Of a DNA stretch of 64,000 nt, positions 1,464-61,179 are shown one piece after another. The stretch is taken from the NCBI GenBank assembly GCA_900466605.1, contig UBMU01000007.1, forward strand, positions 1 through 64,000, in the 5' to 3' direction. Made by a program: the position numbers and the translations under genes. Source of the DNA: Hyphomicrobiales bacterium. GTDB lineage: Bacteria > Pseudomonadota > Alphaproteobacteria > Rhizobiales > Rhizobiaceae. Position 1 is the first letter of the stretch. Every line of letters begins with the position of its first letter. The notes under the pieces are model-generated. The model had not been told where the DNA came from and made no database searches. It worked only from the letters and a program-made list of their open reading frames with translations.

Positions 1464-1488
1464 AACGCCATGGTTCAGTCTTTGTTCC
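1464..1488 (-). promoter_or_regulatory. EcfG/RpoE2-type promoter (exact consensus)
   Basis: On the minus strand GGAAC (1488-1484) is followed by 16 bases and CGTT (1467-1464), the published general-stress promoter pattern of alphaproteobacteria. It lies 37 bp before the 25-residue peptide gene. On the plus strand the same stretch reads GGAAC-N16-TGTT (1462-1486), so it could also fire to the right. Confidence 0.75.
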
Positions 1489-1818
1489 TGATCGGTTGAG
1501 ATCGTCCCTATATCGCTCGTTGAGAGCAGCAGATCGGGGCACATCCAAGTCGCTATCCCGGGTTCGAATTCAAAAGGGCCAAGAGCCACCCGCCGCGGTT
1601 GCCCATTCGGATGTCAGCGCGTTCACCGATGGTGTTTGGTTCGATAGCGTACGGGCCAGAACTGTTTTCCAAAAGACGCGTTCCACCCCGGGAAAGTCGA
1701 ACATCAAAATTGCTTTGTCAGCGAAGGGAAGCGGGAAGACGTCCGCATCCTGGTGCTTTTGGCGGACGAGACGAAAATTGGTGCCGTTGATGGCGCCGCA
1801 ACATTAAAGAGCGTGAGC
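1489..1818. other. Intergenic, no gene recognised
   Basis: No convincing coding frame or ribosome binding site. A GGTTCGAATTC stretch near 1562 resembles a tRNA T-loop but no tRNA fold surrounds it. The plus-strand EcfG-like site at 1462-1486 would transcribe into this spacer. Confidence 0.4.
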
Positions 1819-1998
1819 ATGAACGACAATCGGCCCAAGCTCGCAAGGGCGAGCAAGCAGCAAAAACGCGACGCACTCGAAGAGGCAACCCGCTTTGCTC
1901 GTGAGGCAACCAAAGCCGAACAGAGAAGGCGAGAAGAGAAAACCGAGCGTTTGCGAACCGCGCGGCTGCAGGCGCGCGCTCAGGACAGGCAGGTTTGA
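1819..1998 (+). CDS. Small highly charged helical protein
   Basis: A 59-residue protein rich in Arg, Glu, Ala and Lys, with runs such as KQQKRDALEEATRFAREA and EQRRREEKTERLR that predict one long amphipathic helix. Function unknown. A similar small basic helical protein is encoded, frameshifted, at 48761-48951. The ATG at 1819 is preferred to an upstream ATG that adds low-complexity residues; the ribosome binding site is weak (AAGAG). Confidence 0.5.
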   Translation: MNDNRPKLARASKQQKRDALEEATRFAREATKAEQRRREEKTERLRTARLQARAQDRQV

Positions 1999-2188
1999 GA
2001 ACGAGCAGGCAGCGACCCTTTCACAAGGTCACACGATCAAACGCATCGATGGCAGTCCATGCGGTAGCTGCAATCGTTACTATTATGGCAAAATGCTGGA
2101 GCGGCTTTGATCGACTGTTTGTTGCAATTTCATGCGGGCTACGGAACCTTGAATTCATTTCTGAATTTACGTCCGGACGGAGCCCATG

Positions 2189-2428
2189 ATGACAAAGTTC
2201 CATTTTCGGACAACTGATCTCGACGCAATCTGGCAAGACGAGCAAGGCTATGACTTTCCAGACCTGCCAACTGCACTGGCGCAAGCCAAGCGGCTTCTTG
2301 GAGAAATGGCGATTGATGGACTGCCTGAAAACAGTGGTGGAGCCCTGAAGGTAGAGCTCTTCAACGCCGACAGGGTTTCGATAGCGACCGTGGCCTTGGA
2401 ACTCAGGATAACGTTCTCAGGCAGGTAG
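2189..2428 (+). CDS. DUF6894 family protein
   Basis: A 79-residue protein with the family pattern FHFR...D.EQGYDFPDLPTALAQAKRLLGEMA, followed by a short beta-rich end (LKVELFNADRVSIATVAL). DUF6894 proteins are abundant in rhizobia and Bradyrhizobium and are of unknown function. Two ATGs are adjacent. The second (2189) has the better distance from the GGAG at 2180. It precedes the Crp/Fnr gene by 90 bp in the same direction. Confidence 0.75.
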   Translation: MTKFHFRTTDLDAIWQDEQGYDFPDLPTALAQAKRLLGEMAIDGLPENSGGALKVELFNADRVSIATVALELRITFSGR

Positions 2429-2518
2429 ATGCGTCGAAACGCTCGGCTTGAACGCGGATACCTAAAAAACGAATGCCAAGCGTCTTGGGCCGAGTTTGTA
2501 AAATGACTGGAGGCCAAA

Positions 2519-3895: not shown

Positions 3896-3898
3896 GCT

Positions 3899-4330
3899 TC
3901 AGATGTTAATAGTGCCGTTCTCTTCTCCGTTCCAGTATTGAAGTTTGCGAGCATGAACCTTGATGAGGAGAACACCGGGCGTAGCAACCTTTTGAGGAAA
4001 CCAGCGCTCAAGGTCCTCGCGCCAATGAGTTTGATACTCCCTCCTGTCGTCAATAAGCTCAGCGGCGCCTTCGACTGCGATGAAGATGCCGGGCGTCCCG
4101 AGCAAACTGGGAGGCGCTGTGAAAGAAAGCGAGACCTCAGGATTGGACTTTATCTCAGAGATCTTCTTTGTGTCCTCGTAGCTGAAAAACCATGAGTCAC
4201 CGTCGTAATCAACATCGCCGTTGTTGCTCATTGGCCGCGTGGACATGGCCGTGCTCCCCCATGTCGTCAACATGCAAAAGTCGATCTTCCTTAACTGCTT
4301 AGATAGGTCTTCTAGGGTCATTGCTGACAT
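3899..4330 (-). CDS. Pyridoxamine 5'-phosphate oxidase-like general stress protein
   Basis: A 143-residue split-barrel flavin-binding-type protein of the general stress protein 26 subgroup. Typical features are FCMLTTWGSTAMSTRPMSN, WFFSYEDTKKISEIKSNPEVSLSF, IFIAVEGAAELIDD and a C-terminal KLQYWNG. Family members bind FMN or F420-like cofactors and are induced by stress; the substrate is unknown. AGGAG lies 7 bp before the ATG at 4330. An EcfG-like promoter (GGAAC-N16-TGTT) lies 27 bp upstream at 4357-4381, which fits the stress assignment. Confidence 0.88.
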   Translation of the reverse strand: MSAMTLEDLSKQLRKIDFCMLTTWGSTAMSTRPMSNNGDVDYDGDSWFFSYEDTKKISEIKSNPEVSLSFTAPPSLLGTPGIFIAVEGAAELIDDRREYQTHWREDLERWFPQKVATPGVLLIKVHARKLQYWNGEENGTINI

Positions 4331-4356: not shown

Positions 4357-4381
4357 AACATCGGAAGACGCTGGCGGTTCC
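4357..4381 (-). promoter_or_regulatory. EcfG-like promoter (GGAAC-N16-TGTT)
   Basis: Minus-strand GGAAC (4381-4377), 16-bp spacer, then TGTT (4360-4357), 27 bp before the PPOX-family stress gene. One mismatch from the CGTT consensus. Confidence 0.6.
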
Positions 4382-4500: not shown

Positions 4501-4525
4501 GGAACAATTGGAACGACCCTCCGTT
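4501..4525 (+). promoter_or_regulatory. EcfG/RpoE2-type promoter (exact consensus)
   Basis: GGAAC (4501-4505), 16 bases, then CGTT (4522-4525), 24 bp before the ATG of the proline-rich protein at 4549. It is arranged divergently to the promoter at 4357-4381. Confidence 0.75.
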
Positions 4526-4548
4526 GCAACAGAAACGGAGTATCGATC

Positions 4549-4737
4549 ATGCCAACAATCGTTCCGAACCCAGTGGAAACGCCGCGCGGCCCAACCCCGG
4601 CACCAGGCATCCCTGATCGCAGCAGGGAAAAGCCTCCTTTGACGCCAGCACAGGATCCTTCTGATACCAAGAATCCAAATGATCCCCCGCTTGATCCAGC
4701 ATTGCTGCCGATTGGTGATCCTGCAGGCGCCGCCTAA
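4549..4737 (+). CDS. Small proline-rich protein
   Basis: A 62-residue protein dominated by Pro, Asp and Asn (TPAPGIPDRSREKPPLTP, NPNDPPLDPALLP), with no signal peptide or membrane segment; probably disordered. A GGAG 8 bp before the ATG and an exact EcfG-type promoter 24 bp upstream make it a likely real stress-induced gene. No known function. Confidence 0.65.
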   Translation: MPTIVPNPVETPRGPTPAPGIPDRSREKPPLTPAQDPSDTKNPNDPPLDPALLPIGDPAGAA

Positions 4738-4977
4738 GTCTGGTACCGTTCTCCATTACCCACAGGATAAGCTCAGCTCGACGGGGGGCAGAGGGTATCC
4801 CGCTCGAAAGACGCAATAAGGTGAAGATGGGTGCAAACGGGCAAACGTCAGAAATATCGGCGGCGGAATTTTCACACATGGAACAAGGTGGAAATACATC
4901 GCTTGTGACCCACTTCATCAACCGACGAACGCATGCTACCGTATTCATTGGATAATGCCGCTGTTGGGGGTTGGTTC

Positions 4978-6678
4978 ATGAGACGGAAGCTTGCGGCCGT
5001 GGCTGTAGCAGCGCTTGCGCCCGTTGTCGCAATGCTCGGCTACAACGAATTTTCGATGCGCCAGCAACGCAATGAAGAAATCCGGACAAGCGCAGCGCAG
5101 GCGGCTCGGCAAGCTTCCTCCGAGGTCGAACGGATCGTCGAGGGGTTGCATAGTCTTTTGATCGCGGTGGCAGCAATTCCGTCTGTCCAGGAGCTCGACC
5201 CCAGCGCCTGTACGACTGCCCTTAAGTCAATAGCGGCAAATGTTGCAAACATCCGAACCATCTTTATCGTCGACCTCCAAGGTAACTTTGTGTGCGGCAG
5301 CCAGGCCGCTCCGCCCGGAGTGCAATTTTCCGATCGGGACTACTTCCGCCAAGCTCTCTCGTCCAAGGACTTCGTGGTCGGCACCTTTACGAAAAGCAGG
5401 ATCTCGAACTCTCCGGTCCTCCCGGTTGCCATGCCGCTTCTTAGAGACGGTACGCCTGTTGGGGTCGTGACGACGGGCGTTCGTCTCGAGTGGCTTCAGG
5501 CAAGGATCGCCGACCGCGGTGTTACAGCGGGAAATGCGATCACCATTGCCGACAGCACCGGCACGATCCTCGCTAGGGTGCCGTTGCCAGAGCGCTTTGT
5601 TGGAACTGTGATACCCGTTGATTTCCAGCGCTATGTTCATAGCACCAGTCCAGGCGTTATCGACGTCAAAAGTCAGGATGGAACTGAACGGATTCTCGGC
5701 TACCGCCCCATCAATCCGCCCCACAATCCGCTCTACGTTAGCGCGGGGTTCTCAAAGGCGGAGGCATTCGCGCTCATCAACCGCGCATCGATCATCAACA
5801 CGGCCTCGATCATCGGCGGTGCGGTGCTCGCATTTCTTGCCGCCGTCCTGATTGGAAGATGGTTTATTTTGGCCCCCATCACGCGCATTGCCGAAACGAT
5901 GGAAGAGTGGCGGGCTGGAAACACCTGTGCTCGTACGAACATGATCGCAAAGCGGGATGAACTTAGCCAGGTGGGAGAAACGCTTGACCGTCTGCTTGAT
6001 GAACTGGGTGTTCGCCGTGAACGCGCCGAACAGGCTGAAGAGGAACGATCGCTGCTCGCCCGTGAGCTATCTCATCGGATCAAGAACAGTTTCGCGCTCT
6101 TGCAGGTTATGGCGCGAAAGAGTTTTGCTGATGTTGCGCCGGAGCGCTACCGCGTGTTTTCCGACCGTCTGATCGCACTTGCGGGGGGATATGATCTCCT
6201 GTTATCGAAAGACACGCAGGCCACTTCGATAGCTGGAACGCTTGCCATCGCCTTGCGCGCGCACGATGATGATGACGAGCCAAGGTTTACTCTCGTCGGG
6301 CCCAAGATTGTCCTGCCAGCTGATTTGACACTTTCTCTGTCGCTTGTTGTCCACGAACTCTCCACCAATGCGACGAAATACGGGGCACTGAGTGTGCCGG
6401 AGGGACGCGTTTCGATACGATGGACCATCGAGGGTGAAGTGGTGCATTTCCAGTGGCAGGAGACTGGCGGCCCCCCGGTCAGTGAAGTTTCCGATAGGGG
6501 CTTTGGGTCCGTCCTCATCGAGCGCGCTTTCCCCGCAAGGGCCATGGCGACAACGCGCTTCGATTTCCGGCCCAATGGGCTTGAATTTACACTGCACTTC
6601 AACACAGACAGAGAGGGCATGGAGGCTCATTCAGCTGTCAACAACAAAAAGCAGTTTGCAGATGCGCAAGACAGCTGA
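4978..6678 (+). CDS. HWE-family sensor histidine kinase with periplasmic Cache domain
   Basis: Membrane-bound sensor kinase of about 566 residues. A first membrane helix (about 5-25) leads into a periplasmic dCache-type domain (about 40-260, with DRDYFRQAL and NPLYVSAG). A second membrane helix (about 280-305) and a HAMP region (PITRIAETMEEWRAGN) follow. The phosphoacceptor box is LSHRIKN, with His at about residue 366. The ATP domain has HELSTNATKYGALS, the W-x-E signature (HFQWQETGGPPV) and GFGSVLIERAF, which define the HWE/HisKA_2 class. Such kinases often feed the PhyR branch of the general stress response. No response regulator is adjacent. Start at 4933 is also possible. Confidence 0.88.
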   Translation: MRRKLAAVAVAALAPVVAMLGYNEFSMRQQRNEEIRTSAAQAARQASSEVERIVEGLHSLLIAVAAIPSVQELDPSACTTALKSIAANVANIRTIFIVDLQGNFVCGSQAAPPGVQFSDRDYFRQALSSKDFVVGTFTKSRISNSPVLPVAMPLLRDGTPVGVVTTGVRLEWLQARIADRGVTAGNAITIADSTGTILARVPLPERFVGTVIPVDFQRYVHSTSPGVIDVKSQDGTERILGYRPINPPHNPLYVSAGFSKAEAFALINRASIINTASIIGGAVLAFLAAVLIGRWFILAPITRIAETMEEWRAGNTCARTNMIAKRDELSQVGETLDRLLDELGVRRERAEQAEEERSLLARELSHRIKNSFALLQVMARKSFADVAPERYRVFSDRLIALAGGYDLLLSKDTQATSIAGTLAIALRAHDDDDEPRFTLVGPKIVLPADLTLSLSLVVHELSTNATKYGALSVPEGRVSIRWTIEGEVVHFQWQETGGPPVSEVSDRGFGSVLIERAFPARAMATTRFDFRPNGLEFTLHFNTDREGMEAHSAVNNKKQFADAQDS

Positions 6679-6837: not shown

Positions 6838-7182
6838 CTACGGCTGCTCTCTCATCCCAGGCGTGGCCTCTCTCTGATCGGCGTCATCGAGATCACTTTT
6901 CACGATGAACGCGTCAGTGTGCTCTCGTGCAGCTTCACGCAGAGCCTCCAAGTTCGGTACGTCATCGCCTTCGAGCTGATCGCCACTGTGGAGGATTTCG
7001 TGCTCCGCCTGTAGCCAATGGTCGTCGGGGCGCCCATCCGGGCTTCCTTGGCTTTCCCAGATTTCATAAGCTCGGCGACGAACCCGATCACTGACATCCG
7101 GTCGGTTGTCAGACGTTGCGTCGGGGCTCGAGATCACCGTTTCGTCGGGCAGCGTACCTTGGATTGGTTGTCGTTTTGCCAT
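6838..7182 (-). CDS. DUF2934 domain protein
   Basis: A 114-residue protein with the DUF2934 core RVRRRAYEIWESQGSPDGRPDDHWLQAEHEI at about residues 38-68, flanked by acidic disordered ends. The domain is common in rhizobia and usually found in small stress-related proteins; its function is unknown. AAGGAG lies 7 bp before the ATG at 7182, and an exact EcfG-type promoter lies 31 bp upstream (7213-7237). Confidence 0.85.
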   Translation of the reverse strand: MAKRQPIQGTLPDETVISSPDATSDNRPDVSDRVRRRAYEIWESQGSPDGRPDDHWLQAEHEILHSGDQLEGDDVPNLEALREAAREHTDAFIVKSDLDDADQREATPGMREQP

Positions 7183-7212: not shown

Positions 7213-7237
7213 AACGCAAACGGGTGCCCAATGTTCC
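7213..7237 (-). promoter_or_regulatory. EcfG/RpoE2-type promoter (exact consensus)
   Basis: Minus-strand GGAAC (7237-7233), 16 bases, then CGTT (7216-7213), 31 bp upstream of the DUF2934 gene. Confidence 0.75.
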
Positions 7238-7536
7238 CGAGGCATTGTCGGAACTTCGTGAGTGCTGGCGCTCACGCTTTTCCTGTCTCACGCAAACCTT
7301 ATCGATCAAACCACCTGCAGTGTGACAACAACAGCAAGAGATCGAGGGGAACGCAGTGCCGGACGGGTTGGGTGCTCGCCTGCCAATTCGTTGGCCATGA
7401 CGAGAAACCGGAAAAATCGTCATGTCCACCATCTCCGTCGCGTCCGGTTGACACGGCCCGCGTTCCACAGCGGAATGCTAAACTATTCAGAAGGTTCCAG
7501 ATCCGTGGTCGCATGATTTCAGGCAACTCTCCCGGA
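7238..7536. other. Intergenic, no gene recognised
   Basis: No frame with a credible start or family resemblance on either strand between the DUF2934 promoter and the stop of the small membrane gene at 7537. Confidence 0.4.
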
Positions 7537-7656
7537 TCAGACTGATCCGGGGGTGAACCCAACCAGGTAGATGAAGGCGATAGTGATAGCGATTGCGAAT
7601 ATCACGACTACGAACCGCGACATACCGCGGCGTGCTTTCTTCTCAGTGCTTCTCAT
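7537..7656 (-). CDS. Small single-pass membrane protein
   Basis: A 39-residue protein with a basic N terminus (RSTEKKARR) and one hydrophobic helix (SRFVVVIFAIAITIAFIYLVG), so likely an inner-membrane micropeptide. An EcfG-like promoter (7665-7689) ends only 9 bp before the first ATG. Translation may therefore begin at the second ATG (7623, 28 residues) or from a leaderless message. Function unknown. Confidence 0.5.
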   Translation of the reverse strand: MRSTEKKARRGMSRFVVVIFAIAITIAFIYLVGFTPGSV

Positions 7657-7664: not shown

Positions 7665-7689
7665 AACATGTCGATGTGGCAAATGTTCC
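7665..7689 (-). promoter_or_regulatory. EcfG-like promoter (GGAAC-N16-TGTT)
   Basis: Minus-strand GGAAC (7689-7685), 16 bases, TGTT (7668-7665), directly before the small membrane protein at 7537-7656. Confidence 0.5.
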
Positions 7690-7845: not shown

Positions 7846-7870
7846 GGAACTTGACTGCAACTTCGGAGTT
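7846..7870 (+). promoter_or_regulatory. Possible EcfG-like promoter (GGAAC-N16-AGTT)
   Basis: GGAAC (7846-7850), 16 bases, AGTT (7867-7870), 97 bp before the SDR-treZ pair. One mismatch. Trehalose synthesis is a known output of the general stress response in rhizobia, which favours it. Confidence 0.45.
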
Positions 7871-7966: not shown

Positions 7967-8743
7967 ATGAATAGATCTGTGGCGCTTGTAACGGGTGCTG
8001 GTTCCGGTATCGGTCGAGCAACCGCCATTCATCTGGCAGCGAATGGCTTTGCTGTGGGCGTATTGGGCCACACGTCAGCCGATGTTGAGGCAACCGCTAA
8101 TGTGATCCATGGAATCAACGGCTGTGCCATTGCACTAACGGCTGATGTCGCCGTTGAAGGCGAAATGCGAGCTGCGGTTGCAGCCCTTCTACACCGCTTC
8201 GGGCGCCTGGACGCGGTTGTCGCCAATGCAGGAATAAATGGCGTGTGGGCTCCGATCGACGATCTCAAACGGGAGGAATGGCAGCGCACAATCGATGTTA
8301 ACCTGACCGGCACGTTTATGACGCTTCACGTTACGGTGCCGGAGTTGAAGCGCGCTGGTGGCGGTTCGATCGTTGTTGTGTCATCGATCAATGGGACACG
8401 AACATTTACAACGCCTGGAGCTACCGCCTATACTGCAACTAAGGCCGCCCAGGTTGCGATGGTAGAGCAGCTTTCGCTCGAACTTGCTCGTCATCACATC
8501 CGCATCAATGCTGTTTGTCCAGGCGAGATCGAAACAAACATTGACGCTAATACCGCTTTGCGGGGTGAGGAAGAGACAGCAATCCCTGCAGTTTGGCCCG
8601 ATGGACAGGTTCCAATAACGGGGGGTGCCCCAGGAAAGAGTGTCGACGTGGCCGAGGTGATCGCTTTTCTCCTATCAGATGCCGCTCGCCACGTTACCGG
8701 CGCGCCCGTCTTTGTCGACGGGGGTCAGGGACTCTTGCGCTGA
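7967..8743 (+). CDS. SDR family oxidoreductase
   Basis: Classical short-chain dehydrogenase of 258 residues. It has a Rossmann motif TGAGSGIG at residues 9-16, NAGINGVW, the active-site Ser region VVVSSING, YTATK (Tyr about 155, Lys about 159) and a C-terminal VDGGQG. It reduces or oxidises an alcohol/carbonyl with NAD(P)H; the substrate cannot be read from sequence. Its stop overlaps the treZ start by one base (TGATG), so the two are translationally coupled. A link to sugar or trehalose metabolism is possible but inferred. Confidence 0.9.
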   Translation: MNRSVALVTGAGSGIGRATAIHLAANGFAVGVLGHTSADVEATANVIHGINGCAIALTADVAVEGEMRAAVAALLHRFGRLDAVVANAGINGVWAPIDDLKREEWQRTIDVNLTGTFMTLHVTVPELKRAGGGSIVVVSSINGTRTFTTPGATAYTATKAAQVAMVEQLSLELARHHIRINAVCPGEIETNIDANTALRGEEETAIPAVWPDGQVPITGGAPGKSVDVAEVIAFLLSDAARHVTGAPVFVDGGQGLLR

Positions 8744-10518
8744 TGAGTGGGACAGCAATACGCCAATACGCATGGGGCCCTGCATTCACCGATGGCTCTT
8801 CAACTTTCAGATTGTGGGCACCGGCACTTGATGAATTGCAGCTGAAACTCGGTGCCGAGCAGTTTCAGATGACCAGAGAAGCCGACGGCTGGTTTCATGT
8901 GGAGGTCGGTGGCGCCAGGTTCAGGGAGCCTTACTGTTTCATCCTCCCTGATGGCCGCTTTGTTCCCGACCCTGCCTCCAGGCGTCAACTCGATGACGTC
9001 TGCGGGCCATCCGTCTTGGTCGACCCACAGGGCTATGAATGGAGGCACTCGAATTGGACAGGTCGCCCTTGGGAACAGGCTGTTCTTTATGAGCTTCATG
9101 TGGGTACTTTCACGAAAGAAGGTTCATTCAGGGCAGCGGCCGAACGCCTCGGCATGTTAGCTGATCTCGGGATTACAGGTGTTGAGATAATGCCGCTCGC
9201 CCACTTTCCTGGGATCCGGGGCTGGGGCTACGATGGAGTACTTCAGTATGCACCACACAACGTTTACGGAACACCGGATGACTTCAAGGCATTCGTCGAT
9301 ACGGCTCATAGCCTTGGGCTGATGGTCTTCCTTGACGTCGTGTACAATCACTTCGGTCCAGAAGGGAATTATCTCCACCTTTATGCGCCAGCGTTCTTCG
9401 AAAGTCGGGAACCAACGCCGTGGGGCCCGCGAATTGCCTTTGAGCAAGTAGCAGTAAGGCAGTATTTTATCGACAATGTGGTCTATTGGCTTGATGATTT
9501 CCGGCTGGATGGGCTGCGTTTTGATGCCATCGACCAAATTCACGATCGGGGAAATGTCCATATTCTGCAGGAAATCGCGGAAAAGGTTCGCACGCGATTT
9601 AAGGACCGCCACGTGCACCTCATCACTGAGAACCCGTCCAATGGTGCAGACCTCATTGCGGAGCATGATGGAGGGCGCCTGTTCACTGCCGATTGGAACG
9701 ATGATTTCCATCACGTCCTGCACGTGATCGCAACTGGGGAGGCTTCCGGCTATTACGCGCCATTCAGCAAAAGACCCTGGCCGAAACTGCGCAAAGCAAT
9801 GGCCACTGGGTATCTGAGCGAGGGTGATCAGATTATTCCAGGGCCTAAGATTGCATCGGCATCGCTGCCTCCCACACGCTTCATCCACTTTATCCAAAAC
9901 CACGATCAGGTCGGCAACCGGGCACTCGGGAACCGCCTTTCGACGATGGTGGATGAGACGATGCTGCGTGCTTTGACCGAGTTCCTTCTGCTGTCGCCAC
10001 AAATCCCACTCCTGTTTATGGGAGATGACCATTTGAGCTCCAAGCCATTCTGCTTCTTTGCCGATTATACGGGCGAGATAGCGCAAGCTATACGCAGCTC
10101 GCGACCCTCGGAAGCCCAGAATTTTGGGGGTCTGCCGCAGGGACTTCTCATTGGTGACCTTCCGGACCCAAATGCAATTGAGACCTTCGTTCGCTCCCAG
10201 CTCGATTGGAGTGAAGCTTTCGTCGCGCATCGATTGCGTTGGCGAGCGTGGTTAAAGAGACTGATCGATATTCGACAGAAACGCATAGTGCCACATCTGA
10301 GAGATGCCAAGGGGCGTTCAGGGGCAATTGTGAATGCGCCTGAGCGCTGCGTCTTCCTAGACTGGACGTTCGAAGATGCTCACATGCAGCTACGAGCCAA
10401 CCTCAGCGACAGTGATGTCGCGTGTGAGAGGTCGCCGCAAGAGCAAATCTACCCACCGGAACACAAGGGCGGCGATTTGCTTCCGGCAATGTCTGTCAAC
10501 GTCTATCTGTCGTCTTGA
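8743..10518 (+). CDS. treZ: Malto-oligosyltrehalose trehalohydrolase
   Basis: GH13 enzyme of 591 residues that releases trehalose from maltooligosyl-trehalose in the TreY-TreZ pathway, in the cytoplasm. An N-terminal beta domain (about 1-95, YAWGPAFTDGSSTFRLWAP) precedes the barrel. Catalytic regions visible are DVVYNHFGPEGNYL (about 198), LDGLRFDAID with the nucleophile Asp (about 260), LITEN with the acid Glu (about 295) and QNHDQVGNR (about 387). The start overlaps the SDR stop by one base; a longer in-frame reading inside the SDR gene was rejected. The partner treY and debranching treX are not in the window. Confidence 0.93.
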   Translation: MSGTAIRQYAWGPAFTDGSSTFRLWAPALDELQLKLGAEQFQMTREADGWFHVEVGGARFREPYCFILPDGRFVPDPASRRQLDDVCGPSVLVDPQGYEWRHSNWTGRPWEQAVLYELHVGTFTKEGSFRAAAERLGMLADLGITGVEIMPLAHFPGIRGWGYDGVLQYAPHNVYGTPDDFKAFVDTAHSLGLMVFLDVVYNHFGPEGNYLHLYAPAFFESREPTPWGPRIAFEQVAVRQYFIDNVVYWLDDFRLDGLRFDAIDQIHDRGNVHILQEIAEKVRTRFKDRHVHLITENPSNGADLIAEHDGGRLFTADWNDDFHHVLHVIATGEASGYYAPFSKRPWPKLRKAMATGYLSEGDQIIPGPKIASASLPPTRFIHFIQNHDQVGNRALGNRLSTMVDETMLRALTEFLLLSPQIPLLFMGDDHLSSKPFCFFADYTGEIAQAIRSSRPSEAQNFGGLPQGLLIGDLPDPNAIETFVRSQLDWSEAFVAHRLRWRAWLKRLIDIRQKRIVPHLRDAKGRSGAIVNAPERCVFLDWTFEDAHMQLRANLSDSDVACERSPQEQIYPPEHKGGDLLPAMSVNVYLSS

Positions 10519-12196: not shown

Positions 12197-12221
12197 GGAA
12201 CTAGGGCCGGTTGTGCGCGTT
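12197..12221 (+). promoter_or_regulatory. EcfG/RpoE2-type promoter (exact consensus)
   Basis: GGAAC (12197-12201), 16 bases, CGTT (12218-12221), 31 bp before the XRE gene at 12252. Confidence 0.75.
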
Positions 12222-44730: not shown

Positions 44731-44741
44731 GATTGTTCCCC

Positions 44742-47237: not shown

Positions 47238-47262
47238 AACACTCCCAACAACTAATGGTTCC
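47238..47262 (-). promoter_or_regulatory. EcfG-like promoter (GGAAC-N16-TGTT)
   Basis: Minus-strand GGAAC (47262-47258), 16 bases, TGTT (47241-47238), about 183 bp before the PhnA-like gene. The long leader lowers confidence. Confidence 0.45.
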
Positions 47263-49336: not shown

Positions 49337-51472
49337 TCATGGCTTGATCGGCAACGACGCCTTCCCGAGCTTCACCGATGGCTCGCGGCCCCAGACCCGC
49401 AGCTTGCCAAGCTTCTCCACGAAGGCGGCGAGGCCGTCGTCTCCAGGTAGCGCTAGAACCCCCTCGTCGAGAGCGTCGGCGATCCCTGCCTTTTCTAGCA
49501 GTGGCAGCGCCGACCGATCGTAGCCGATGAACTTGCAGTGCTGGAACGCATCGGCGACGAAGTCTCGCGCCGTTGCCTCCTTCACCAGGTCATCCATGGC
49601 AACGGACGACGTCAGCACAGCCACGGCGTCAAAAAGGACAGATGGTCCGCCATCGATCATATGATGGGCCTTGACCAGCGTCCCGTCAGATGCCGTGACG
49701 CCGCCCACCTTGGGTGCGATCAACTCGAAGACAGCCTTCTCCTTGGTTATGGCCTCCCCAAGGGCCTTGAGCAGCTTCGCGTCGACGCCATCGGTGACGA
49801 GAATGCCAAGCTTACGACCTTCGAAGCGTTTCGGACCACGTTCCACGATGCTGAGAGCTGGCGAAGGCTCAAGGTCCTGGCGGGTGGGCATCGCCGCGTC
49901 GGCAGGCTTCGGCATGGATTGGAAACCGAGCTTCTGCGCGACGGTTGATGCAAGCGTCTCATCAATGTTCAGAAGATGAGAAACCATCCGCTCCCGGATC
50001 GGTGTCGTCTCGACCTTGCTGAGCTCAAACGTTAACGCTGCCGCGATGTGGCGCTGCTCCGGCGGGGTCTGGCTGATGTAGAACTGCCGGGCCTGGCTAT
50101 AGTGGTCGGCAAAGCTTTCCGATCGCAGTCGCACCTTCTCTCCTTGCTCCTCGGCGGGGAAATGGCGATAGCCTTGTAGGGGAGACTCTCTCGGTCCTTC
50201 GCCGAACGAGTTCGGCTGATAATTCGCACGCCCGACAGGATTGCGCATCGCCATGTGGCCATCCTGTTGGAAAGTATGGAAAGGACACTTCGGCGCGTTG
50301 ATGGGCAGATGCGTGAAGTTGGGACCACCCAGCCGCTTGAGCTGCGTATCGAGGTAGGAAAAGTTGCGACCCTGCAGCAGCGGATCGTTGCTGAAGTCGA
50401 TCCCCGGCGGGACGTTCTGGGTCATGAAGGCGACCTGTTCGGTCTCGGCGAAGAAGTTGTCTGGCATACGATCGAGAACGAGGCGGCCCACGGGCTGCGG
50501 CGGCAGGATTTCCTCCGGAATTATTTTTGTCGGATCGAGGACATCGAAGTCGAAGCTGTCAGCGAAGTCCTGGTCGAAGAGCTGGACTTGCAATTCCCAT
50601 TCCGGGAAATTCCCTGACTGGATCGACTGCCAGAGGTCGCGTCGATGGAAATCGGGGTCGGCGCCGTTGATCTTGACCGCTTCGTTCCAGGCCACCGACT
50701 GCAGCCCGAGCTTCGGCTTCCAGTGGAACTTGACAAAGGTCGACACGTCCTTGGCGTTGACAAACCGGAAGGTGTGGACCCCAAAACCTTCCATGAAGCG
50801 CAAGGAGCGGGGGATCGCCCGATCGGACATCACCCACATAATCATGTGCATGCTTTCCGGCGTCAGGCTGATGAAGTCCCAGAAGGTGTCATGCGCCGAC
50901 TGGGCCTGCGGAAAGTCGCGGTCCGGCTCCGGTTTGACGGAATGGATGAGATCGGGGAACTTGATGGCGTCCTGGATGAAGAATACCGGGATGTTGTTGC
51001 CGACGAGATCCCAGTTGCCCTCCTTGGTGTACATCTTCACGGCGAAGCCGCGGACGTCGCGGGCGAGATCGGACGATCCCTTGCTGCCTGCCACCGTGGA
51101 GAATCTGACGAAGACCGGCGTCTTTTCGCCAGCCCGCTGAAACAGGTCGGCGCGGGTATAGGCCGCTAAGGATTCGTAGGTCTCGAAGTAGCCGTGGGCG
51201 CCATATCCGCGGGCATGGACGACGCGCTCGGGAATTCTTTCGTGGTCGAAGTGGAAGATCTTTTCACGGAAATGGAAGTCGTCGACAACAAGCGGACCGC
51301 GGGCGCCGACCCGAAGCGAGTTCTGGTCATCGGCGACCGGGCCGCCTTGCGCAGTCGTAAGGACTGGATGTCCGTCTTCCGCGAACTGATGCAGTTCTCC
51401 GCCGTTGCCCCGATGAAGCTTCTCATCGTGAACGGTAGCATTGTCGGATTGCGTGATAGGTTTTTTGGCCAT
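49337..51472 (-). CDS. katE: Large-subunit monofunctional catalase HPII
   Basis: A 711-residue haem catalase that dismutates hydrogen peroxide. Core motifs: [20 protein letters not shown] with active-site His, [39 protein letters not shown] with distal Asn, and the proximal Tyr region [17 protein letters not shown]. After about residue 540 a class I glutaminase-like domain ([18 protein letters not shown]) defines the large HPII type. A weak GAAGAG precedes ATG 51472. It is downstream of a DUF892 gene, separated by a terminator, and probably has its own promoter. Stress-protective. Confidence 0.95.
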
Positions 51473-51561: not shown

Positions 51562-52062
51562 TCAAGCGGCCTTTTTCCCCTTGGGATTGGCTGATGCCCT
51601 GGCGAGTTCAGTAAGCTTACTATCGGTCGCTTCCTCTTCGACAAGGGTTGCCTGCAGAAGTGCAGTGGCCTCCGTTAGCCCGAGTTGGTCGGCCCAGGCG
51701 ATCAGGGTGCCGTAACGCGCAATCTCGTAGTGTTCGACCGCCTGTGCCGCCGAGATCAAGCCAGCGTCAAGCGCGACCGAGCCCTTGTATTCCTCGATGA
51801 TCTCTTCGCCTTCGGCGAGGATGCCCTGAATGGCTTCGCAGGTCTTGCCGCGAGCCGGCTTGCCGATGAGTTCAAACACCTGTTCGAGCCGCTCGATCTG
51901 TCCCTGTGTCTCGTCGCGATGCTTGAGGAAGCCAGCTTTGCCTTCTTCCGACTGCGAGGCGCGAGCCATCTTTGGAAGGGCCTTCAAAATCTGCTTCTCA
52001 GCAAAATAGATGTCCTTGAGCGTATCAAGGAAGAGGTCGTTGAGTGTCTTTTCGGGAGCCAT
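51562..52062 (-). CDS. DUF892 (YciE/YciF-type) ferritin-like protein
   Basis: A 166-residue paralogue of the protein at 45612, with [74 protein letters not shown] and [21 protein letters not shown], and a Lys-rich end. It is predicted to bind a di-metal centre in a ferritin-like bundle. GGAGG 5 bp before the ATG is strong, and an EcfG-like site lies 33 bp upstream. Its position next to katE suggests a shared oxidative-stress role (inference). Confidence 0.93.
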
Positions 52063-52094: not shown

Positions 52095-52119
52095 AACTCC
52101 GCGTGAGGGTGGATGTTCC
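52095..52119 (-). promoter_or_regulatory. Possible EcfG-like promoter (GGAAC-N16-AGTT)
   Basis: Minus-strand GGAAC (52119-52115), 16 bases, AGTT (52098-52095), 33 bp before the DUF892 gene. Confidence 0.5.
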
Positions 52120-52945
52120 GTCCATGAAATGATCTACGTTCCGTCGCCGGGACGTTGCCTCAATCCATCAAAGGAAGAGAGCCGGTGGGCCCCGCTGCGC
52201 CTGCGGACTACAGAACGAGCTGACCGGTTAAAGACAGAACCTCCACCTATCGCCGTTGTTCCATCGATCTCGGGGCTTTTGTTCCATATCGAGGAAGTGA
52301 ACGGCCTAGGTGATTTTATTGCGGAGAAGGTACGGTGAGGTGATCGAGGATTTGTCGCACAAAGAATCCACGAATTTGCAACGGTTACCGCCAACTCATG
52401 TAGGTGCCATCCGGGCCATCTTCGATTACTCCAAGACGTGGCAGCTCGTCATACCCGACAACGATCGTAGCGTTTCGGATGTCTTCGTGCTTCAAAACCC
52501 TCAACGTCGCGACGGCAGGGCCGTGCACGCCAAGCTCGTCGAATGATCCTGACATGCCAGGCCCAATATAAATCCGTCGGGATTGAGGGAACTGGAACTA
52601 TCGCGACATGAGAGCAAGACGCTGCCCAGGGGAAAGCGTCATGCGTCGAAGTGTTAGGGGAGAAAGGGCCGAGGTTGGTGGCTGACGAACGTCAGGGCAA
52701 TCCGTCTGTCGGTACCGTTCATCGCCAAGGTGCGTTTGGTGTTTGGCGCTCCACGCCGAACGAGCAGTTCTTGGGCATCGCTGAGTGCGAAACGGAGATC
52801 TTTGAGATGATGGACACGCCGCGCCACAAGATGATTACCGCGCAGGAGCGCTTGCTGGACGCGTGATCATCCGCCGGTCCGCCTGGTCGGCAAGCGGTCC
52901 GCCCTCGGCCGCCCCCGAAAATGTATCACCCACTGTCTGCTTTGG
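52120..52945. other. Low-coding region
   Basis: About 820 bp without a supported gene. Short plus-strand frames at 52310-52546 and 52651-52866 have no ribosome binding site or family likeness. Confidence 0.35.
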
Positions 52946-54058
52946 TCAGTTGGTGGGCATCTCGAAAACAAAGCGGGTTTCGTCCGGACCGCTGGTGGCC
53001 ACCAAGGTCCCTCCATGGGCTTTAGCGATTTCGGACGCGATGAAAAGGCCCAGACCCAAACCTTGTTTTGAACCAGCGTTGCCTCTAATGAACGGCTGGA
53101 ATAGGCGTTTCAGCGTCTCTGGCGGAATCGCGCCCCCCGTGTTGGCGATCTCTACCTTCAGCCGATTCCGGTCGAACGATGCCCGCAAAAGCACCGGTTC
53201 CGACTTCGCTCCATGTGTCAGAGCGTTGGCCAATAGGTTCGAAACCATTTGAGCAATGCGCGCCGCATCGCACGTAACTGCGTCCAGGCGATCGAATTCG
53301 GCGATGATATCGCTGTCACCGTGAACGGTCTTGAGTTCGTCGATGACCTGTCTCAGTACGGGTTCTAGTTGATCGGTTTTCCTAAGGTCGACCCCGATTC
53401 CACCACCGAGGCGGCTTCGCGCAAAGTCCATAACATCGTCGATGAGCCCTGACATTCGCGTGACACTGCCCTTCATCAATTCGAGGATCTGGGCGTCCTT
53501 CCCCGTCGCCCGACGCTCGAGCATCCTGACGCCGCCCGAGATTGAGGCAAGCGGATTGCGTAGGTCGTGCCCGAGGACTGCTACGAACTGTTCACGTAGG
53601 TCGGACGCCTTTTCGAGAGTCTTGATTTTCTTATCCGAAGCAGTCTGCGCGTCAACCAGACCTCTCTCGAACCGCCTGCGATCAGCTGCCGGGAAAAGGG
53701 CCAGTCGTGTCGATGTCAGTTGTCCGGACGGATCCTTTCGCTCCAGCGCGTTAGCAAGCATTGGCATGCGGGCACCATCCGCTTTGATAACGTCGAGGGC
53801 CACTTCATGATAGAAGCCCTGAATTCGCAGGAGGGGCGCGAAGTGAGTTTCATAAAATACCTTGCCTGCGACAGGCAGAAAATCCCGTAGGGGTCGACCC
53901 AAGATCGCCTCGGTATCATAGCCCGTCCAATTAAGGAACGTACGGTTGACCTTAAAGATGCGGCCATCGGGCAACATGGAAAGGTAACCGCACGGAGCGT
54001 TTTCAAAGAGATCTTCAAAATCTTCGGCAGGCGCTAATGCCCGGACGTCGTCATGCAT
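52946..54058 (-). CDS. PAS-domain sensor histidine kinase
   Basis: A soluble 370-residue kinase. The PAS domain is at 12-125 (FEDLFENAPCGYLSMLPDGRIFKVNRTFLNWTGYD). The phosphoacceptor box is VAVLGHDLRNPLASI, with His 164. The ATPase domain has N-box NLLANALTHG (about 275-284) and glycine loop QGLGLGLFIASEIAKAHGG (332-350). Its ATG overlaps the stop of the RsbQ-like gene by 8 bp, so the two are coupled. In Bacillus, RsbQ works with the PAS protein RsbP, so this kinase is a candidate signalling partner. No response regulator is adjacent. Confidence 0.92.
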   Translation of the reverse strand: MHDDVRALAPAEDFEDLFENAPCGYLSMLPDGRIFKVNRTFLNWTGYDTEAILGRPLRDFLPVAGKVFYETHFAPLLRIQGFYHEVALDVIKADGARMPMLANALERKDPSGQLTSTRLALFPAADRRRFERGLVDAQTASDKKIKTLEKASDLREQFVAVLGHDLRNPLASISGGVRMLERRATGKDAQILELMKGSVTRMSGLIDDVMDFARSRLGGGIGVDLRKTDQLEPVLRQVIDELKTVHGDSDIIAEFDRLDAVTCDAARIAQMVSNLLANALTHGAKSEPVLLRASFDRNRLKVEIANTGGAIPPETLKRLFQPFIRGNAGSKQGLGLGLFIASEIAKAHGGTLVATSGPDETRFVFEMPTN

Positions 54059-56118: not shown

Positions 56119-56127
56119 AATGAGCGA

Positions 56128-57099: not shown

Positions 57100-57249
57100 T
57101 CAATGCTCCTTGAGACGTCGCTCCACCCCGGCCGGGCAGGCATGGTGAAATTCTCCATGGCATGAAAAGTTCCGTCTGTTTTGCCCGGAACGAATAGGGC
57201 CCGCCAGCATTCCTGTGAGCTGCTAAAAAATGTCGCAAGGAGACATCCG

Positions 57250-57441
57250 ATGGGAAGCACGTCCGACAAGGTCAACGGCCCCGCTAACGAAATCGCTGGT
57301 AAGGCCAGGCAGGCTGCAGGCAAGGCGATCGACAATCAAAAAGAGCAGACCAAGGGTGCTGTCCAGGAAGGCAAGGGCAAGGCGCAGGTCGCCAAAGGGG
57401 AAGCCAAGGAGGCGGTCAAAAAGATCGTCGACAAGGCGTGA
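57250..57441 (+). CDS. CsbD family protein
   Basis: A 63-residue hydrophilic Lys/Ala/Gly-rich protein (DKVNGPANEIAGKARQAAGKAI, EGKGKAQVAKGEAKEAVKKIVDKA) of the CsbD family, which is under the general stress sigma factor in Bacillus and common in rhizobial stress regulons. AAGGAG is 7 bp before the ATG. A weak promoter-like GGAAC-N16-CATT starts at 57189. It lies divergent to the PRC-barrel gene. Confidence 0.9.
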   Translation: MGSTSDKVNGPANEIAGKARQAAGKAIDNQKEQTKGAVQEGKGKAQVAKGEAKEAVKKIVDKA

Positions 57442-58001: not shown

Positions 58002-58940
58002 TTAATCCACCTTAGGTAGGCTGTGAGCTTGGAGACGGTCGGCTATCATAATGTTCGCGAGGTCGGTGAACTCCCCGTTGGGGTATTTCAACACATAGGC
58101 TTTGAGCATATCGATATTACCGGCCTCTCGGACCGTCTCCCAAAACGCGAGCTCGACTGAAGGGTCATCTCCGCTCGTTCTGCCGCTTTTGAGACGCGCT
58201 TTGGCAAGTTCGAGGAATTGCCCGTTGGGGAAGCGCTGAAGGTAGATTGCATACTCGGCTAGATCATCGCTCTCTTGTACCGACTTCCAAAAGGCGACTT
58301 CGACACGATGACCCGCATCGTCGCTGTCATCAGATCGAGCATGCTCGGCTGCAATAGACTGCTCTGGGCTTTCAATAAGGGGAAGCGCCAAATCGATTGC
58401 TGGTTCTCGCTCTTGGTCGAATAGGACACGGAACACCCGAAGCGGACGCGCGATGTTCTTAATATTTTGCTCGCCAAGGTCTTCGAAGGTTGCATCCACA
58501 CGGTCGCGGAGATGATCGCGTACGCCTCGCGTGACACAGATGCCACCGACATCGGCGAGCCCCTCCAGCCGGGCGGCTATATTGACACCATCGCCGAAGA
58601 TGTCTCCATTTTTGACGAGTACATCGCCCACGTTTATCCCGATGCGAAAATTCATCCGACTGTCTATCGGAAGCGCCTGGTTGGCGCGCCAAATTGACTG
58701 CTGGATCGCAATGGCCGCATTGAAAGCATGCACGACGGACGGAAACTCAGCCAGCACGCTGTCGCCGGCTGTGCCGAAAATCTGGCCATGTGCCTTTTCG
58801 ATGAGGCCGTCAACTATTGTGCGATGAGAGGTCAACGTCGCCAGCGTGTGTTCCTCGTCAATATTCATTAGCCGTGAATAACCCTCGACATCAGCCGCGA
58901 GAATGGCTGCGAGCTTACGTTTAAGCGGTGGCGCTTCCAT
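58002..58940 (-). CDS. Cytoplasmic class III nucleotide cyclase with C-terminal repeats
   Basis: A 312-residue protein. The class III cyclase domain is at about 8-175 (AAILAADVEGYSRLM with metal Asp17, FGTAGDSVLAEF with Asp60, GDGVNIAARLEGLAD). The C-terminal third holds two 38-residue repeats (213-250 VEVAFWKSVQESDDLAEY, 262-299 VELAFWETVREAGNIDML), each ending with a PNG-F-LA pattern. These look like a helical protein-binding module seen in rhizobial cyclases. Monocistronic. The cAMP it may make could act with Crp-type regulators. Confidence 0.9.
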   Translation of the reverse strand: MEAPPLKRKLAAILAADVEGYSRLMNIDEEHTLATLTSHRTIVDGLIEKAHGQIFGTAGDSVLAEFPSVVHAFNAAIAIQQSIWRANQALPIDSRMNFRIGINVGDVLVKNGDIFGDGVNIAARLEGLADVGGICVTRGVRDHLRDRVDATFEDLGEQNIKNIARPLRVFRVLFDQEREPAIDLALPLIESPEQSIAAEHARSDDSDDAGHRVEVAFWKSVQESDDLAEYAIYLQRFPNGQFLELAKARLKSGRTSGDDPSVELAFWETVREAGNIDMLKAYVLKYPNGEFTDLANIMIADRLQAHSLPKVD

Positions 58941-59201: not shown

Positions 59202-59226
59202 GGAACTAAGGAATGCGCCCGTCGTT
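59202..59226 (+). promoter_or_regulatory. EcfG/RpoE2-type promoter (exact consensus)
   Basis: GGAAC (59202-59206), 16 bases, CGTT (59223-59226). It overlaps the first in-frame ATG (59213) of the FAD oxidoreductase, so translation must start downstream. Confidence 0.7.
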
Positions 59227-59272
59227 CCCATCTTGCAACACAGATCAACCTCCTCCAGCACGGCAGACGTTC

Positions 59273-60502
59273 TTGGATAACTCTACGCAAATAACGAAAA
59301 AGCGTATTCTTCATCGCGATCAACCGCTCTGGGCGGCAACGCCTCGTATTTCAGTAAGAACCAAACGTTCCCTTACCAGAAAGTCGTTCGACGTCATTAT
59401 CGTCGGCACTGGCATCAGCGGGGCGTTGATGGCCCACGCCTTAATCGGCAAAGGGTTGCGATTACTGATAATCGACCGAAGGAATCCGGTCCGGGGCAGC
59501 AGTCTGGCGAGTACCGCCATGATTCAACACGAGATCGATGTCCCTCTTTGTGTTCTGACGACAATGATTGGGAAGCGCGACGCCGCGCGTGTGTGGCAAC
59601 GTTCTGCCCAGGCAGTAGAGCGGCTTATCGAGCTAGTGAATGATCTCAGCATAAGCTGTTCACTCGAGCGAAAGCGCACATTGTTCTTGGCTGGAGACCA
59701 ATACGGGGTGAGATCGCTCAAAAAGGAGGTGAGGGCGCGCCACAAAGCGAATATAGGCGCGGAACTGTTGACCTCCCAGACGCTACTCAAGCGGCATGGC
59801 ATTTCCCGGACAGCCGCTATTGAGAGCGCGATCTCAGCCTCAGCAAATCCCGCCCAAATGACATCGGGCCTACTTCGTCACGCTGCAAGGATGGGGGCCG
59901 AGATCGTCTCGGGCGTCGAGGTAAAGGACGTCCGCAGCATCTGCGACTCCGTCGTCGTGTCGACTGACGCTGGCGCGATGATCTCTGCCCGGCATGCCAT
60001 CTTTTGCACCGGATACGAGTTTCTCGAATCACTAGCTAACAAAAATCACCGGGTAATATCGACGTGGGCGCTGGCGAGCCGCCCGAGGCTGCCACGTCCC
60101 GATTGGCTTGATGACTATCTCGTGTGGGAGGGATCGGATCCTTACCTCTATTTTCGCGCGACTCCCGATGGAAGGGTGATCGTAGGTGGTGAGGACGAGA
60201 GCGACGAGCAAGCATACAAAAGTGAAGCCAAGATCGTCGCCAAGACGAAGACGCTCATCGAAAAGGTGGCAGATATAATTGGAATCGAAATCGGCAAGCC
60301 GGACTTCAGATGGGCCGCGCCGTTTGGAACTACCCCCGATGGATTGCCGATGATTGGAAGCGTCCCAGGCATGCCGGGCGTGTTCGTCACTATGGGATTC
60401 GGCGGAAATGGAATCACGTTCAGTCAGATCGCGGCTGAACTTGTTTCATCAGAAATATTTGACCACCGGGATCCCGATTGGGATCTCTTTCCCCTACATT
60501 AA
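59273..60502 (+). CDS. FAD-dependent oxidoreductase (DAO family)
   Basis: About 410 residues. The FAD-binding motif is DVIIVGTGISGALMAHAL (about 40-57) with DRRNPVRGSSLAS. A substrate-domain middle and the C-terminal DAO ending PMIGSVPGMPGVFVTMGFGGNGITFSQIAAEL follow. Enzymes of this family oxidise amines or amino acids to imines with oxygen or quinone as acceptor; the substrate is unknown. The first in-frame ATG (59213) lies inside an exact EcfG promoter, so I place the start at TTG 59273; the true start remains uncertain. Confidence 0.85.
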   Translation: MDNSTQITKKRILHRDQPLWAATPRISVRTKRSLTRKSFDVIIVGTGISGALMAHALIGKGLRLLIIDRRNPVRGSSLASTAMIQHEIDVPLCVLTTMIGKRDAARVWQRSAQAVERLIELVNDLSISCSLERKRTLFLAGDQYGVRSLKKEVRARHKANIGAELLTSQTLLKRHGISRTAAIESAISASANPAQMTSGLLRHAARMGAEIVSGVEVKDVRSICDSVVVSTDAGAMISARHAIFCTGYEFLESLANKNHRVISTWALASRPRLPRPDWLDDYLVWEGSDPYLYFRATPDGRVIVGGEDESDEQAYKSEAKIVAKTKTLIEKVADIIGIEIGKPDFRWAAPFGTTPDGLPMIGSVPGMPGVFVTMGFGGNGITFSQIAAELVSSEIFDHRDPDWDLFPLH

Positions 60503-60620
60503 GGGGTGTTTATCGGTGAGGCTCCGGTGAATTCAAGCCTGCGACAGCGAGGACATCGGCTCAAACCTCGCGAGCTTCCGAAACAATCGGATATGCCACT
60601 TATTGTGAACGTTTTGGCTC

Positions 60621-61094
60621 CTAACGACTCGCGCCAAAGACGAACGCGATGGCAGCAACGATCCCGACGGCCGTCAGCGGCCTGTCTTTGACGTAGCGTT
60701 GAATATCCGCCAGGAGTGACGCGCCTTGAGTCCTCGCAAGGATCACTGATCCGGAGGCGATTTCCGATACCGCCGATGAAACCCTCGAGGCTTGCGTCCT
60801 GAGTTCACGGAGGGATTTGTCGCCTTTCGTTACGACGGGGTCCTCGGTTTTGAGGACCTTGTCAACCAGCGGGGCATGGGCAGTAAGCGGGTCGGGATTC
60901 GATCTGACGGTTTCAGCTTCGTCCTGGTCCACGCGGCCAGCGGGAACATCCGTCCGGGTGGCGGAAACCGGGTCAGATGCGGGAAAGCTGTCTTCAAGGG
61001 CTCGATCGAGTTCACTTCTCGTGCGCTTTTGGCGATGCTTCGACTGCTCGCGCTTCAAGGATGCGACTGCAGGCGATTCTTTTGAGTCAGCCAT
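60621..61094 (-). CDS. YqjD/ElaB-like C-tail-anchored protein
   Basis: A 157-residue protein. An N-terminal disordered part contains RSELDRALEDSFPASDPVSATR, a short motif recurrent in rhizobial stress proteins. A helical region (RELRTQASRVSSAVSEIASG) and a C-terminal segment (RYVKDRPLTAVGIVAAIAFVFGA) resemble YqjD/ElaB, which anchor ribosomes at the membrane in E. coli. GGAG is 8 bp before ATG 61094; an EcfG-like site lies 61 bp upstream. Confidence 0.78.
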   Translation of the reverse strand: MADSKESPAVASLKREQSKHRQKRTRSELDRALEDSFPASDPVSATRTDVPAGRVDQDEAETVRSNPDPLTAHAPLVDKVLKTEDPVVTKGDKSLRELRTQASRVSSAVSEIASGSVILARTQGASLLADIQRYVKDRPLTAVGIVAAIAFVFGASR

Positions 61095-61154
61095 CTTATT
61101 TCTCCTGTTAGTGCTTGATCGGTCCGAGGGCGCGTCTCCGGGGATTGCCAGAGG

Positions 61155-61179
61155 AACTCGTGGAGACGAGAGGAGTTCC
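61155..61179 (-). promoter_or_regulatory. Possible EcfG-like promoter, palindromic (GGAAC-N16-AGTT)
   Basis: GGAACTC (61153-61159) and GAGTTCC (61173-61179) form an inverted repeat, so both strands read GGAAC-N16-AGTT. The minus version is 61 bp before the YqjD-like gene. It could equally be an operator. Confidence 0.45.

Follow-up and report, generated by a model that had tools for sequence, protein, structure and literature searches.

A 64-kb island of EcfG-type promoter-like sites in a Rhizobiaceae genome and the recurrence of such islands around DUF892 genes

Introduction

In the Alphaproteobacteria the release of the sigma factor EcfG through the PhyR-NepR partner switch is established for the class (relevant sections of PMC3616915 and PMC4814048). 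The closest described regulons are those of EcfG1 (RpoE4) of Rhizobium etli and RpoE2 of Sinorhizobium meliloti, which, in the sections of PMC3892343 and PMC3616915 that present them, are given as lists of genes and not as dense islands. For R. etli EcfG1 the sections on promoters report the motif GGAAC-N16-CGTT and a non-coding RNA (ncRNA), ReC64, with an EcfG1 promoter mapped by 5' rapid amplification of cDNA ends (PMC3892343). Here we describe a stretch of 64,000 nucleotides, bases 1-64000 of contig UBMU01000007.1 (C39) of a Hyphomicrobiales bacterium of the Rhizobiaceae (GCA_900466605.1; 6.59 Mb in 132 contigs), hereafter called the window, in which EcfG-type promoter-like sites occur at some 15 places. 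The window resembles the two described regulons in motif and spacing, and the genome resembles them in its core regulator genes, in an rpoH2-like target (named by eye) and in a site at the place of ReC64, but differs in the dense arrangement.

An original prediction, made from the letters of the window, had proposed that these sites belong to a dispersed EcfG/RpoE2 general-stress regulon, and the analysis supports this interpretation, with dependence on EcfG remaining putative. The window is best read as a general-stress-response island with at least 15 EcfG-type promoter-like places, served in trans by a core regulator encoded elsewhere in the genome, and we put the probability of this reading at roughly 0.88. 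The motif, the core, stress ncRNAs and plasmid-borne EcfG2 are already known, as is the mechanism; new are the arrangement as a dense island, of which no description was found in the literature searched (subscription papers lay mostly outside it), and the small RNA (sRNA) Atu_At1 as a putative target.

Promoter-like sites in the window

Five exact matches to GGAAC-N16-CGTT are found where the original prediction had placed them, at 1464(-), 4501(+), 7213(-), 12197(+) and 59202(+). Its estimate of about 0.5 such sites by chance agrees with the mean of 0.61 in shuffled sequences, and 0 of 100 shuffles give five. When one mismatch is allowed, 41 matches are present with 16.8 expected, a count that again none of 100 shuffles reaches, and 18 of the 41 retain an intact GGAAC-N17-GTT; the five exact and at least seven near sites listed at first were therefore present but an undercount. 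We used GGAAC-N17-GTT as working motif, treating the C of CGTT as optional. Three overlapping pairs on the two strands reduce the 18 sites to 15 places.

All 18 sites lie outside called genes, in accord with the predicted location in intergenic spacers. Genes were called by a custom script, not by a standard annotator, and a second call, for whose training further stretches were added, gives the same result. A weight matrix built from the exact sites would be circular for the fixed columns, and spectra of the spacing between GGAAC and GTT were used in its place. In the spacers of the window each spacing other than 17 occurs 0-2 times (spacings 13-22) or 0-4 times (spacings 8-29), and inside genes there are 0-3 occurrences per spacing and none at spacing 17, which speaks against an equal density within genes. 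The window hence contains what an EcfG regulon is expected to contain, -35-like GGAAC and -10-like GTT elements at a fixed distance in spacers. The further claim that nearly all sites lie 20-60 bp before a start codon was overstated, as, by our own gene calls plus one hand-read open reading frame (ORF), this holds for 6 of 18 (24, 27, 31, 31, 33 and 42 bp); the remaining 12 are 9, 61, 97, 125, 176 or 183 bp away or farther, up to 1250 bp.

Comparison with the rest of the genome

The regulon is genome-wide and the window is its densest 64 kb. Throughout the genome there are 79 sites with CGTT, 43 with AGTT, 42 with TGTT and 56 with GGTT, 220 in total, of which 18 (including 5 of the 79 exact ones) fall into the window. 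A density above that of the rest of the genome, on which the original prediction hinged, is indeed found: after merging of overlapping sites the window holds 15 of 210, with 8 in each of the two next densest 64-kb stretches, on C84 and C87. For at least 15 merged sites the Poisson probability is 2e-9 (lambda 1.9), a value for one window that is not corrected for the choice of that window. As control DNA 382 kb were taken, consisting of the remainder of C39, the whole of contig C86 and positions 50001-70000 of 11 contigs chosen before their sequence was seen. Since 18 of 73 GGAAC in spacers of the window are part of full sites versus 7 of 132 in the control (Fisher P 9e-5; 7e-4 with overlapping pairs merged), spacer length alone is not the explanation. 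As regards features of a mobile genomic island, the GC content of the window (0.561) is within the range of the 11 control stretches (0.55-0.62), no tRNA gene is found in it, and matches to the repC family in the genome are confined to C72 and C85.

A called gene begins within 250 bp downstream of 35 of the 79 exact sites, each of these 35 being in a spacer, and the genes behind them, named by eye, include CsbD, DUF892-type, small membrane peptide and rpoH2-like genes. A second dense cluster is seen at C84:18663-48298 (L151, L152), where 8 of 8 GGAAC-N17-GTT are in spacers; judged by eye, they precede genes for a topoisomerase IB-like protein and for small proteins of secreted or membrane type.

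The core regulator on another contig

The sole nepR match of the genome (Pfam model) is located on C86 between a PhyR-type gene and a gene for an extracytoplasmic function (ECF) sigma factor, with an HWE-type kinase gene after phyR. Here phyR, ecfG and the kinase gene were named by gene order and by sequence inspected by eye, ecfG also by similarity to plasmid EcfG-like proteins; nepR, phyR and ecfG are all present in the genome. Sites of the same type are found on C86 before phyR (N18), before nepR-ecfG (-10 CATT), before the kinase gene and before a DUF883-like gene (by eye), and a further one downstream of the kinase gene occupies the place of ReC64 in R. etli, the two being compared by place only. 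The EcfG protein has ten matches in the genome, itself included, none of them on C39, and no regulator of the PhyR-NepR-EcfG switch was found on that contig, which agrees with the earlier remark that ecfG, phyR and nepR are missing from the window. The proposal of a satellite of a regulator elsewhere fits, because another contig carries nepR, phyR and ecfG, together with promoters of the same type, and the island on C39 would depend on a sigma factor from there. A second EcfG was not assigned in this genome, as the next best ECF paralogue is 35% identical to EcfG and likewise to the plasmid EcfG-like protein.

EcfG-like genes, whose products are 42-43% identical to the EcfG of this genome, adjoin DUF892 genes on plasmids of strains WSM1325 and CIAT 652. 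In this they are like the plasmid-borne EcfG2 group (as characterized in the corresponding sections of PMC3892343), from which the present case differs in that no such sigma gene was found on C39. On two plasmids the EcfG-like gene stands divergently beside DUF892 (e.g., L166:19021-19542 and L167:19197-19724).

Recurrence of islands around DUF892 genes

Related loci were assembled from the best 80 of 552 relatives of the DUF892 protein of the window, comprising 1.52 Mb with two overlapping loci and titles that include Rhizobium, Shinella, Neorhizobium, Sinorhizobium, Allorhizobium, many 'Rhizobiales bacterium' and one Devosia. Together with eight named plasmid regions they form an extended set of 88 DUF892 loci of 4-40 kb each. 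The spacers of the 80 loci contain 375 sites at spacing 17 (371 distinct with their flanks), 42 at spacing 18 and 10-25 at each remaining spacing from 8 to 29, while their genes contain 12-38 per spacing and 29 at 17. At least three sites are present in 57 of the 80 loci and none in 2. Per noncoding kb there are 1.56 sites in the first 1 kb around DUF892 and still 0.60 at a distance of 7.5-10 kb, as compared to 0.025-0.050 for other spacings. On plasmids and further contigs of the family, dense islands with partly different genes recur in the vicinity of DUF892, as is evident from 375 spacer sites at spacing 17 versus about 17 at others, out to 10 kb.

Moreover, the sites are oriented. Within 150 bp of a gene start in the 80 loci, 214 point only towards the gene, 28 only away and 23 both ways; the other 110 sites have no start that close, and the corresponding sums over twelve other spacings are 51, 25, 10 and 123. 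The eight plasmid regions contribute 70 spacer sites (324 kb). When they are included, a site is found in the 300 bp upstream of 327 of 1767 genes, the mean for other spacings being 10.7.

In two of these loci spacing 18 is more frequent in spacers than spacing 17, a Neorhizobium NCHU2750 plasmid (L170; 9 versus 5) and a Rhizobium CC-CFT758 plasmid (L169; 5 versus 4). Spacing-18 sites may be a longer-spacer variant or may belong to another sigma factor. Bidirectional promoters formed by the dyad GGAAC-N17-GTTCC were considered as a special feature of the window and rejected, as related loci hold no more of them than chance occurrence of the final CC predicts. One such dyad is found at C42:55091-55117 of this genome and at L168:27809-27835 and L174:8760-8786, in three genomes between what seems to be the same divergent gene pair, of lysylphosphatidylglycerol-synthase and endonuclease/phosphatase type; the pair is annotated in L168 only.

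The small RNA Atu_At1

A search of the genus revealed a conserved stretch without called gene at 7357-7498. The Rfam family Atu_At1 (RF02496) matches there at 7356-7463(-) with 115.4 bits, its gathering score being 60, over the full length of the model (1-108 of 108). A near-match site with -10 CATT (7474-7498, -) ends 10 nt before the 5' end of the RNA. For comparison 50 of 52 listed matches from 37 of 121 family genomes, the own genome included, were examined; the two weakest were left out and 4 of the 50 are under the gathering score. A promoter was scored when GGAAC-N17 or GGAAC-N18 preceded an nTT whose end lay 4-18 nt away from the RNA 5' end. This rule is satisfied by 42 of the 50 copies (N17 in 37, N18 in 5), as compared to 55 of 9000 random 60-mers of the same loci, which suggests that in the family at large Atu_At1 is an sRNA driven by EcfG. 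The commonest -10 forms upstream of the 42 copies are CGTT (13), CATT (12) and GGTT (9), and the distance between site and RNA 5' end is near constant. Eight copies are without the promoter, including the one on C70 of this genome; the copy on C47 has it.

The same promoter layout is seen for the RpoE2-dependent sRNA SmelB126 of S. meliloti (PMC3616915 and, for coordinates, PMC7143759, in the entries concerned). From the first base of GGAAC-N17-GTT to the RNA 5' end there are 33 nt in SmelB126, by the PMC7143759 coordinates, and 35 nt in the window. SmelB126 differs in that it does not reach the gathering score for RF02496, and it was rejected as a member of Atu_At1 on this ground. The possibility that the window copy folds with unusual stability was likewise rejected, its folding energy being no better than that of shuffles (z 0.24). 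No report of EcfG control of Atu_At1 was found in the literature searched, which did not include the primary Agrobacterium tumefaciens sRNA paper.

Candidate targets and conservation of their sites

Orthologues of window genes were sought within the 88 loci. The site is kept at 58 of 88 DUF892 orthologues, at 5 of 5 orthologues of the protein encoded at 437-1339 (123-273 bp upstream) and at 8 of 9 of the protein encoded at 46135-47055 (39-44 bp upstream); with Atu_At1 these are the targets at which conservation is found. Only 2 of 35 katE orthologues have a site of their own, katE following DUF892. Apart from these and from the SDR, treZ, Crp-type, HWE kinase, PAS kinase and esterase genes taken up in the Discussion, window genes have none, one or two orthologues in these loci.

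The DUF892 ferritin-like protein (51562-52062, -; PF05974), which we take to be of the YciF type, is preceded by a site at 52095-52119(-), 33 bp before DUF892-katE, and by a second one at 52238-52262(-), 176 bp before; paired sites upstream of DUF892 are also present in T136 and CIAT 652. Downstream of it lies a large-subunit catalase of HPII type (49337-51472, -; PF00199, PF18011), whose best NCBIfam match is catalase HPII, under its cut-off. The gene at 437-1339(-) encodes a probable target of 300 amino acids (aa), by eye of membrane type and with no family assigned by Pfam or NCBIfam; upstream of it, at 1462-1488, sites on the two strands overlap (GGAAC-N17-GTTCC), the minus one lying at 125 bp. 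The 306-aa probable target at 46135-47055(-), also without Pfam or NCBIfam family, has its site at 47238-47262(-), 183 bp before the called start.

Several further sites are close to genes of the first 13 kb. One at 4357-4381(-) is 27 bp before the gene of a pyridoxamine 5'-phosphate oxidase-like (PPOX) protein (3899-4330, -; PF16242), and an exact one at 7213-7237(-) is 31 bp before the gene of a DUF2934 protein (6838-7182, -; PF11154). The exact site at 4501-4525(+) precedes by 24 bp a hand-read, proline-rich ORF of 62 codons (4549-4737, +) that the gene finder missed; in three genomes of the genus, 73-78% similarity is seen to DNA within 4547-4736. As this site precedes the 62-codon ORF, and as none of 7 orthologues of the HWE kinase encoded at 4933-6678 has a site, the kinase was rejected as an EcfG-driven input of the island. 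At 7665-7689(-) a site lies 9 bp before an ORF for a small membrane peptide of 39 aa (7537-7656, -; by eye), or farther before an internal start (28 aa). The site at 7846-7870(+) is 97 bp before a short-chain dehydrogenase (SDR) gene (7967-8743, +; PF00106) followed by treZ for malto-oligosyltrehalose trehalohydrolase (8743-10518, +; TIGR02402, 657 bits), and the exact site at 12197-12221(+) is 31 bp before a helix-turn-helix gene (12252-12479).

Towards the other end of the window a near-match site with CATT (57187-57211, +) is located 39 bp before CsbD (57250-57441). Overlapping sites on both strands at 59202-59228 lie between an FAD oxidoreductase gene (start within 59213-59519) and a cyclase-domain gene (58002-58940), and another such pair at 61153-61179 has its minus site 61 bp before a YqjD-like gene (60621-61094, -; a weak DUF883_C match just under the cut-off) and its plus site 42 bp before a 72-aa ORF. 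Sites named at the outset for PPOX, DUF2934, YqjD-like and FAD oxidoreductase genes are hence in place, and the one assigned to TIGR02587/TIGR02588 is of unclear target, being 532 bp off. The TIGR02587 gene (about 43856-44740, -) seems frameshifted around 44550-44610, with its N-terminal part in another frame, by sequencing error or decay.

In addition to the HWE kinase gene, the window carries signalling genes at 13642-15441, 33190-34503, 25580-26785, 52946-54058 and 58002-58940, encoding two cyclase-domain proteins, two GGDEF proteins and one PAS-HisKA kinase. A flagellin gene for 595 aa is located at 39158-40945; among the part of the window proteins that was scanned no other is flagellar.

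Discussion

How could the island be expressed? Following published work on R. etli and S. meliloti, stress would lead to phosphorylated PhyR, encoded on another contig, which would sequester NepR and free EcfG. EcfG-RNA polymerase would then start transcription in trans at promoters composed of -35 GGAAC, 17 bases and -10 GTT, or a weaker ATT. The products would be the ferritin-like protein and catalase pair, the SDR-trehalose pair, PPOX, DUF2934, CsbD and YqjD-like proteins, small peptides and the Atu_At1 sRNA. A large catalase, trehalose synthesis, PPOX, CsbD, YqjD-like protein and membrane peptides, some of them named by eye, fit a stress response. The sequence itself shows the promoter-like sites with their spacing and location in spacers, their clustering, their conservation at several genes and at the sRNA, and the core on another contig; we infer that EcfG reads the sites, that the genes are induced jointly under stress and that the cell benefits.

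Several observations weigh against this interpretation. Genome-wide, the reversed pattern is mostly more frequent than the motif (90 versus 79 for CGTT, 67 versus 43 for AGTT, 69 versus 56 for GGTT), with only TGTT commoner than its reverse (36 reversed versus 42), and bare single matches in arbitrary DNA therefore tell little; as it differs from the motif in dinucleotide composition and mostly outnumbers it, the reversed pattern was not adopted as main test and is reported only. Arbitrary stretches of the same eight plasmids contain 29 sites in 320 kb, 18 of them from one WSM1325 stretch with DUF892, DUF2934, Hsp20 and Mn-catalase genes. Conservation of the site is weak at SDR (2 of 7), treZ (2 of 10) and Crp-type (2 of 12) orthologues and absent at those of the HWE kinase (0 of 7), the PAS kinase (0 of 5) and the esterase (0 of 9). 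Finally, three window sites are without clear target: a GGAAC-N17-GTT site at 1660-1684(-), 321 bp from the start of 437-1339; one at 33062-33086(-) without recognised downstream gene; and one at 45146-45170(-), with the called start of TIGR02587/TIGR02588 (43439-44614) 532 bp downstream.

Does the density of the island reflect selection? It could be imagined that accessory stress genes, each with its own EcfG promoter, passively pile up on accessory regions without selection for togetherness, and we consider this possible at slightly less than even odds. Among the matches listed, 38 of 39 other genomes of the genus contain counterparts to pieces of the first 13 kb, mostly in separate places, which makes the islands look like mosaics; some of the pieces are within tens of kb on one contig and there is little synteny in the genus. 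The differing gene content of islands and the sites in control stretches of the same plasmids point in the same direction. Against mere accumulation, density stays high to 10 kb from DUF892 over 80 loci, and companions recur in the 88 loci, katE in 35 and SDR matches in 29, though only 7 of the latter at 50% identity or more.

Alternatively, the sites may be real ECF promoters that are read, all or in part, by another ECF sigma factor, an EcfG paralogue or a member of another group. Candidates are offered by the ten EcfG matches in the genome and by the EcfG-like genes beside DUF892 described above, which are detected in 13 of 88 loci. Moreover, EcfG2 of R. etli is encoded on a plasmid and controls a regulon that differs in part (according to the sections of PMC3892343 devoted to it), and S. 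meliloti RpoE6 shares 27 of 40 targets with RpoE2 (in the target comparison of PMC6180224). Since no match is found on C39, the next best paralogue is just 35% identical, the same type of site precedes phyR, nepR-ecfG and the kinase gene, and 75 of 88 loci are without EcfG-like gene in the stretch examined (4-40 kb, so that farther genes are missed), another reader is improbable.

It is very improbable that the motif, instead of being a promoter, serves a DNA-binding regulator as dyad operator (GGAAC-N17-GTTCC). Three perfect dyads of the genome's ten are found in the window, and in the spacers of related loci spacing 17 is the commonest for dyads (14, the next being 7 at spacing 18), but most sites are without second half; 13 dyads account for 26 of 375 sites (6.9%), as chance CC gives (C 0.33 x C 0.20), and sites point towards gene starts and keep a near-constant distance from sRNA 5' ends. 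Chance, aided by long spacers (20 of 64 kb are noncoding) and selective reading, would be in keeping with the similar frequency of bare and reversed patterns genome-wide but is contradicted by the shuffles and by spacing spectra specific in the window and likewise over 1.52 Mb of other loci, as well as by sites conserved at some orthologues and the sRNA, and is practically negligible.

Returning to the general-stress-response island served in trans by EcfG, the response could tentatively be pictured as having two layers, a proposal that we hold just short of an even chance. A core of phyR, nepR and ecfG would be complemented by many satellite islands on accessory replicons, exchangeable and already wired, each carrying one promoter per 4 kb or so; these would work in any host as the promoter code is shared, and EcfG-driven Atu_At1 would have spread as a regulator with this layer. 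Such an arrangement would assign a function, stress survival in soil and plant, to a share of the unknown small genes carried by rhizobial plasmids, and would give a promoter-based way of finding such islands in any genome of the family. Furthermore, it would place Atu_At1, an sRNA family for which no described role was found, under a known regulator, and its role would therefore become testable with an ecfG mutant.

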